Origin: Marinobacter sp. CHS3-4
GTDB taxonomy: Bacteria > Pseudomonadota > Gammaproteobacteria > Pseudomonadales > Oleiphilaceae
DNA: 64,000 bases
Direction of reading: 5' to 3'
NCBI RefSeq assembly: GCF_030053415.1
Contig: NZ_JASGBJ010000003.1
Coordinates: 248,001-312,000, forward strand
How positions within the stretch are numbered: the first letter of the stretch is position 1; each line of letters starts with the position of its first letter. The translations under genes and the position numbers were made by a program. Under the pieces are notes generated by a model, which made no database searches, had not been told where the DNA came from, and was given only the letters and a program-made list of their open reading frames with translations. Below are positions 54,166 through 56,045 of the stretch, piece by piece.

Positions 54166-55158
54166 ATGAATAATCTGGATTATCAGGTAGTCACGCAGGC
54201 CATTAGTTGGCTGGAAGAGGGCAGGACCATCTGGTTCTGCACCGTGCTGTCTACCTTTGGCTCATCACCCCGCGAGCCCGGATCACTCATGGTCGCTTCG
54301 GCAGACGGTAAACATGTTGGATCGCTTTCAGGAGGCTGTGTTGAGGAAGACTTTCTTGAGCGAGTGACCACCGGCGATTTTGAATCCCCAGCGGTTACGG
54401 TGCGTTATGGTGATTCGAAAGATGACCGGGGTAACCCCCGCATCAAATTGCCCTGCGGCGGCGTGCTGGAAGTGCTTATCGAGAAAATGAGTGCCAATGA
54501 AGAGACCAAGGTTCATTGTGCCCGGATACTCGACGCCATGGTGTCCGGCCAGCCCCCCGTTGCACGACAAGTCAGGCTGACAGACGGTGCAAAGTGGCTT
54601 GAAACGATAGAACCCACCGGGCCGCGAGTGGTGGTCAGCCAGGCAGAAGAAATAGTGACCATCCGGGTTGGCGCCATTGCCCGGCTCATATTGGCTGGCT
54701 ACTCAGCCGTTGCCGAAGCTTGCGCCAGTTTTGCCGTGAGCCTGGGTTATGAAGTGATTGTCTGCGACCCCCGTGAGGAAGTGACGGCTAACATGCGCCT
54801 CCCGGAGGGTGTTCAGTTTCAGCCGGTTTTACCATCGCTTTATATCAGTGCCGAGGGCACTTGCACCGCGTCCACAGCGGTGGTGGCAGCAACCCACGAC
54901 CCGAAAATCGATGACCTGGCGGTGATGGCCGCCGTTAAAACCCCGGCAAGCTACATTGGTGTGATGGGGTCTCTGAAGACCTCTAAAGCACGCTCAGAGC
55001 GCCTGCGACGTTCGGGTGGGCTTAGCGATGAAGACATCCGTCGAATTCACATGCCCATCGGTCTTCAGCTTGGCAGCAAAACGCCATCAGAAATCGCACT
55101 GGCCATCATGGCCGATATTGTTCGTGTGAGACGGGGTCGCGACATCGACGAATTGTAG
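54166..55158 (+). CDS. XdhC/CoxI family protein
   Basis: 330 aa with both XdhC domains: N-terminal STFGSSPREPGSLMVASADG and GSLSGGCVEEDFLE, and C-terminal ATHDPKIDDLAVMAAVKT, SYIGVMGSLKTSKARSERLR and LQLGSKTPSEIALAIMADIV. XdhC proteins bind molybdenum cofactor and pass it, sulfurated, to xanthine dehydrogenase-family enzymes. No such enzyme is in the window. Confidence 0.88.
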   Translation: MNNLDYQVVTQAISWLEEGRTIWFCTVLSTFGSSPREPGSLMVASADGKHVGSLSGGCVEEDFLERVTTGDFESPAVTVRYGDSKDDRGNPRIKLPCGGVLEVLIEKMSANEETKVHCARILDAMVSGQPPVARQVRLTDGAKWLETIEPTGPRVVVSQAEEIVTIRVGAIARLILAGYSAVAEACASFAVSLGYEVIVCDPREEVTANMRLPEGVQFQPVLPSLYISAEGTCTASTAVVAATHDPKIDDLAVMAAVKTPASYIGVMGSLKTSKARSERLRRSGGLSDEDIRRIHMPIGLQLGSKTPSEIALAIMADIVRVRRGRDIDEL

Positions 55159-55220: not shown

Positions 55221-55261
55221 GGTTGTACGAACCAGGCAGAGATGGAATGAAGGTTGTCGAA
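55221..55261 (+). promoter_or_regulatory. Tandem repeats upstream of the PEP-CTERM promoter
   Basis: GGTTGTACGAA (55221-55231) and GGTTGTCGAA (55252-55261) are direct repeats starting 31 bp apart, about three helical turns. They lie about 90-125 bp before the -24 element and could be enhancer sites for a sigma-54 activator. Confidence 0.4.
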
Positions 55262-55347
55262 ATTCTTTACAAACTTAGTGATCTGTCGCTTGGGGTGAAT
55301 GTAAGCCGGCATCACAACCACTGATAAACACATCACAATACTGCCCA

Positions 55348-55363
55348 TGGCACTGTTATTGCT
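55348..55363 (+). promoter_or_regulatory. Sigma-54 promoter of the PEP-CTERM gene
   Basis: TGGCAC-N5-TTGCT matches the RpoN consensus at every position. It would start transcription near 55375, about 55 nt before the PEP-CTERM start codon. Confidence 0.85.
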
Positions 55364-55429
55364 CCCGAATCAAAGCAGTACGTGTAGTCTGTATGAACGC
55401 GAAAACCAAAACAACATGGAGCGTATGCT

Positions 55430-55990
55430 ATGAAAAAGAATGCCTGTTTTTGCCTCTTGATGATTCTGGGTTTGATCTGGATATCACCTGCTCAGGCAAC
55501 ACCAATATATGCGGACAGCCTTGTGGCTTCTAGCTTCGTCACTTCCTTTGGCTCTGGTGATGTGACCGGTGCACCAGATGGTGGTGGCCTCTTCTTGGGA
55601 GATGACTTCGATCCACCCACCAATCCGGGCTCCATTACCGTGGGGTTTTCAGGAGGACTGGGTGACGGCGCGGGAGATGACATTTTTGTTGTTGATGTCG
55701 CTAGCTCGGTTAATGAGACAGCCAATATTTATGCCAGCACGGACAATATTTCGTTCACCTTTCTGGGTATGGTAAATGCTGTCGCAAACAGCCTTGATAT
55801 CAACGGCCTGTTTTCAGGCGCCATCAACTATCTGAGAATCGACAACGCTTCCACCGAGGTCTCGATCGATATCGATGCCGTGGGTGGCTATTATGCCTAC
55901 GAGCCCCGTGACGTGCCGGAGCCAGCATCCATTCTGATCATGCTTGCCGGTCTTCTGGGAATTGGTGTCTCTCGTATTAAGAAGTCCTGA
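55430..55990 (+). CDS. PEP-CTERM sorting domain protein
   Basis: 186 aa with a signal peptide (CLLMILGLIWISPAQA), a low-complexity, Gly/Asp-rich beta domain (DGGGLFLGDDFDPPTNPG), and the C-terminal tripartite signal VPEPASILIMLAGLLGIGV followed by SRIKKS. Such proteins are cut and exported by an exosortase (XrtA) in EPS-producing bacteria. No exosortase gene is in the window. Expression probably depends on RpoN (promoter at 55348). A terminator follows. Confidence 0.9.
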   Translation: MKKNACFCLLMILGLIWISPAQATPIYADSLVASSFVTSFGSGDVTGAPDGGGLFLGDDFDPPTNPGSITVGFSGGLGDGAGDDIFVVDVASSVNETANIYASTDNISFTFLGMVNAVANSLDINGLFSGAINYLRIDNASTEVSIDIDAVGGYYAYEPRDVPEPASILIMLAGLLGIGVSRIKKS

Positions 55991-56001
55991 CAGAAATTGA
56001 G

Positions 56002-56045
56002 AGCCCCCCGATGGCTGGTTGCCGTGACCGGTCTTGGGGGGCTTT
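56002..56045 (+). terminator. Terminator-like hairpin after the PEP-CTERM gene
   Basis: AGCCCCCC (56002-56009) pairs with GGGGGGCT (56036-56043), with a TTT just after and a T-rich stretch to 56055. The loop is long (26 nt) but the stem is strong. It sits between convergent genes. Confidence 0.65.

Follow-up and report, generated by a model that had tools for sequence, protein, structure and literature searches.

In environmental bacteria, the formation of flocs and of matrix depends on PEP-CTERM proteins. The stretch of DNA analysed here (the window, 64,000 nucleotides in all) carries a gene for such a protein behind a long non-coding region, and the question it raises is how this gene is controlled: which activator would act on it, from which site, and how site and promoter are arranged with respect to each other. 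The relevant features are as follows.

55221-55231, + strand: repeat 1 of the first-pass annotation, GGTTGTACGAA; locus-specific, lacks TTTACA
55252-55261, + strand: repeat 2 of the first-pass annotation, GGTTGTCGAA; the last 7 of its 10 nt coincide with the start of the box at 55255-55271
55255-55271, + strand: PEP-CTERM box, motif 1 of Haft et al. 2006, TGTCGAAATTCTTTACA; exact TGTC-N7-TTTACA, 17 nt; predicted PrsR site
55313-55328, + strand: IHF-like element, CACAACCACTGATAAA; 41 nt past the box and 35 nt before the promoter; moderate match
55348-55363, + strand: sigma-54 (-24/-12) promoter, TGGCACTGTTATTGCT; perfect consensus
55374, + strand: expected transcription start, ∼12 nt past the -12 GC, from general sigma-54 geometry
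55418-55421, + strand: putative ribosome binding site GGAG, 8 nt 5′ of the ATG at 55430
55430-55990, + strand: PEP-CTERM protein gene, 186 aa; N-terminal signal peptide, C-terminal VPEPASILIMLAGLLGIGVSRIKKS
56000-56045, + strand: terminator-like hairpin 3′ of the PEP-CTERM gene; fold dG −36.3 kcal/mol, z −4.7

The gene and its surroundings

The product of 55430-55990 matches both PF07589 (21.8 bits, cut-off 20.7) and TIGR02595 (20.5 bits, cut-off 16), and is predicted to be an exported surface protein sorted by an exosortase. Its AlphaFold model has a pLDDT of 39.5 and offers no usable structure. No close ortholog was present among 61 genomes of the genus, so that direct footprinting of the gene's own promoter is impossible; the sole relative found, at 31% in a Nitrospirota MAG, has neither box nor promoter.

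Between the end of an XdhC-family ORF (54166-55158) and the ATG lies a non-coding gap of 271 nt, longer than the 200 nt used as a criterion by Haft et al. 2006. The strong GC-rich hairpin on the other side of the gene (AGAGCCCCCC...GGGGGGCUUU) is probably its terminator, and a simple terminator scan did not include it in its list. Given this hairpin, the gene is probably transcribed alone, that is, as a single-gene operon in the sense of Haft et al. 2006.

Promoter and likely activator site

The first-pass annotation had placed a perfect sigma-54 promoter before the PEP-CTERM start, and TGGCACTGTTATTGCT is indeed an exact match, its last base lying 66 nt from the ATG. Taken by itself the site is not significant in 64 kb: the exact core TGGCAC-N5-TTGC is mildly unusual (1 in the window vs 0.14 expected), and sites with at most one mismatch are as frequent as chance would have it (3 vs 3.25 expected). 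Significance is reached jointly with the box at 55255-55271. This box corresponds to a 17-nt motif ending in TTTACA (motif 1) which, together with a sigma-54 motif (motif 2) 32-92 nt downstream, precedes most proteobacterial PEP-CTERM genes and has been linked to PrsR, PrsK and PrsT (Haft et al. 2006, PMC1569441). With a matrix built from the genus, TGTCGAAATTCTTTACA scores 24.9, the next best sequence on either strand of the window reaching 9.9. An alignment of 66 boxes shows that the conserved part measures exactly 17 nt (TGTCRRNWTWHTTTACA) and that the flanks are near random, with almost no conserved information in the 15 nt 5′ of the box. Another dyad resembling the box, TGTAAGCCGGCATCACA at 55300-55316, was dropped, since other sequences of this upstream region match the box better. 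We found no experimental test of the PrsR box in the open-licence literature.

The regulatory circuit in the genome

The genome (3.72 Mb, 7 contigs) encodes the complete set of proteins that such a promoter would call for. PrsR (∼672.6-672.8 bits, cut-off 502.6) and PrsK (666.8 bits, cut-off 300) are each present in one copy; prsK, prsR and prsT are adjacent, one of each, and all three exceed their cut-offs. The exosortase XrtA (TIGR03109, 227.7 bits, cut-off 208) is encoded with glycosyltransferases ∼25 kb beyond prsK-prsR-prsT, and both RpoN and IhfA are encoded in the genome. The first-pass proposal of an RpoN- and PrsK-PrsR-type gene, which named prsK, prsR and xrtA as the genes to look for, is thereby strongly supported. 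The prsK-prsR-prsT genes, the glycosyltransferases and XrtA form one exopolysaccharide locus (L097:3041-9416, L098:10429-12129) with two PEP-CTERM genes inside it.

The promoter layout also recurs. Across the 3.7 Mb there are 11 exact occurrences of TGTC-N7-TTTACA against 2 for a backward control. A GG-N10-GC follows six of the 11 at a distance of 20-130 nt, and each of these six boxes lies before a PEP-CTERM gene; the remaining five have neither a sigma-54 site nor a PEP-CTERM gene. Fourteen PEP-CTERM matches were counted in this genome, and four of them (L003, L010, L012 and L013) are without a box and promoter pair: their expression must presumably follow another route or occur within operons.

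Two other readings of the activator and its site have to be weighed here. The first-pass annotation had offered a pair of GGTTGT(A)CGAA repeats, GGTTGTACGAA and GGTTGTCGAA, as a candidate PrsR-type site. The repeats do exist; they are the sole two matches in the window and lie 31 bp apart, about three helical turns, and could be conceived of either as the enhancer site of PrsR or as providing an auxiliary half-site three turns (31 bp) before the box. They are, however, found upstream of none of the 158 other PEP-CTERM genes, for which reason we rejected them as a shared regulatory site; GGTTGT itself shows no enrichment upstream of PEP-CTERM genes (24/159 vs 21/159 in reversed controls), the unconserved bases 5′ of the box argue against repeats as the PrsR site, and repeat 1 has no TTTACA. 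That GGTTGTCGAA resembles a repeat at all is because 7 of its 10 bases form the first part of the box, an overlap due to chance. What stands is the presence and spacing of the pair; a role for it in PrsR binding is hardly credible. The activator site is likely to be the known 17-nt box and not the tandem repeats, which settles the likely site. As to the activator, the genome encodes about ten NtrC-family AAA+ regulators, and the assignment to PrsR consequently rests on the family name and on published co-occurrence. Only one protein exceeds the PrsR cut-off, though (the next NtrC-like protein scores 355 bits), and the phylogenetic profile of the box was matched to PrsR by Haft et al. (PMC1569441). 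That another member of the family binds the box seems very unlikely.

Box and promoter are separated by whole helical turns

At this locus the spacer between box and promoter measures 76 nt. The comparison set comprised 159 PEP-CTERM genes in 123 genomes of the genus. For each gene the box and the sigma-54 site with the highest score were recorded, score being the sole criterion, and any spacing between 10 and 160 was allowed. A box of at least 10 bits was present in 152 of the 159 upstream regions, and 133 of these also contained a sigma-54 site; clustering by spacer similarity reduced the 133 promoters to 113 non-redundant ones. The spacers fall into four classes, 50-54, 61-65, 71-77 and 83-86, with nothing between: 112 of the 113 belong to one of them, the one outlier being at 115. 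The class means are 51.7, 64.0, 74.8 and 85.3, and the present locus belongs to the third class. When boxes and promoters were re-paired at random, 48% fell in class on average and 71% at most; of the actual spacers within 45-90, all 112 did.

Because the genus data themselves served to define the class windows, the fair test is a search outside the genus. An independent pattern search of 368 such Gammaproteobacteria genomes placed 134 of 150 spacers in class among the matches listed, with 11 off phase where ∼53 were expected; many families are represented, and matches within one genome are partly non-independent. A simple test on short DNA recognised a PEP-CTERM-like tail at 8 of 30 loci from other genera, so some of the class-wide matches may be due to chance or may precede genes that this test missed. 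Spacing by whole turns of the helix thus holds across the sister promoters and goes beyond the regulon as previously described; we found no prior description of helical phasing of PEP-CTERM promoters in the open-licence literature.

Haft et al. 2006 (PMC1569441) remarked that motif 1 can occur in repeated form. This agrees with some promoters in other genomes of the genus (L132, L127), where two complete PrsR boxes stand 62 bp from each other.

A third element in the spacer

De novo motif discovery in 112 spacers returned TAAcnnAYTGAWWTA, with a log-likelihood of 175 compared to 40-47 for shuffled sequences. On the strand read, this motif fits the reverse of YAANNNNTTGATW, the IHF consensus. 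The element keeps its place relative to the promoter: in the first three spacing classes it lies 31-35 nt before it and the distance to the box steps through 20, 31 and 41, and in the fourth class it lies one turn farther from the promoter (43-44). At loci from other genera 8 of 18 element matches are at 33-34, and lesser clusters occur one turn nearer and one turn farther. The copy in the window, CACAACCACTGATAAA, has a score that only 0.7% of shuffled spacers reach at its distance (P = 0.007). Binding of IHF at 55313-55328 is plausible.

Two doubts bear on this picture, one on the identity of the element and one on the origin of the phasing. The element could be the site of some other bending or nucleoid protein, or simply AT-rich loop sequence: CACAACCACTGATAAA matches just 6 of the 9 positions of the IHF consensus, and AT-rich sequence replaces IHF at other sigma-54 enhancers (PMC4740811). 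Against this, the regulon-wide motif prefers the IHF consensus at the specified positions, with the AT tract on the expected side; ihfA is present in the genome; and the order enhancer, IHF, RpoN promoter is a well-known and common arrangement (PMC7962754). We consider an identity other than IHF a real but lesser possibility. The phasing, for its part, might have been inherited through gene duplication and not selected, a view favoured by the kinship among many PEP-CTERM genes of the genus. Yet 113 promoters are left after clustering by spacer similarity, they form four classes with empty gaps, and the phasing recurs in many further families of the class; inheritance alone is a very improbable explanation. 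Phased loops with a positioned IHF-like bend remain the reading we prefer.

Proposed mechanism and relation to known systems

We put at about 0.88 the probability that 55430-55990 is a monocistronic PEP-CTERM surface protein gene of the PrsK-PrsR regulon, transcribed from a sigma-54 promoter with a PrsR box and a bend-assisted loop. PrsR, once phosphorylated by PrsK, would bind its 17-bp box (55255-55271); at the spacer element the DNA would be bent by IHF or by another bending protein; and PrsR could then contact the RpoN polymerase at 55348-55363, whereupon the promoter would open. The 76-bp spacer would set box and promoter on matching faces of the helix, as in nearly all sister promoters.

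The locus belongs to a known promoter type. With the regions that Haft et al. 2006 described it shares the 17-nt motif with its terminal TTTACA, the sigma-54 site downstream, a spacer within 32-92, the large intergenic region, the single-gene operon, the PEP-CTERM domain downstream, and the accompanying prsK-prsR-prsT and exosortase. That paper gives a mean spacer of 62.8 (SD 10.6), and its text contains neither helical classes nor a third, IHF-like element; the phased three-part layout refines the type. A second comparison is with pepA of the floc former Aquincola tertiaricarbonis RN12, also a PEP-CTERM gene, for which RpoN dependence is experimental and PrsR dependence predicted; its mapped -24/-12 is TGGCAC/CTGCTT and an enhancer is predicted upstream (PMC9850573). 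The protein is a different one: the product of 55430-55990 scores 16.7 bits with the floc-forming PepA model NF033554, below the curated cut-off of 80. In the LuxO-sigma-54 qrr enhancers of Vibrio, natural indels likewise respect the DNA helical repeat (PMC4740811), but activator and targets are others, and the PEP-CTERM spacer adds a positioned IHF-like element.

It is probable that PEP-CTERM promoters of Gammaproteobacteria share a phase-locked design of three parts: a PrsR box, an IHF-like bend ∼33 nt before the promoter, and spacing by whole turns. If so, an indel of half a turn should remove a gene from the regulon. The 2006 motif with its loose spacer would become a precise rule, with box, IHF-like element and promoter in helical register, from which members of exosortase regulons may be predicted from sequence.

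At two loci from other genera (L259, L274) in-phase pairs of box and promoter stand before proteins whose sorting tails are of the VPLPA or PAPAPL type and not PEP, hinting that the regulon may extend to variant sorting signals.
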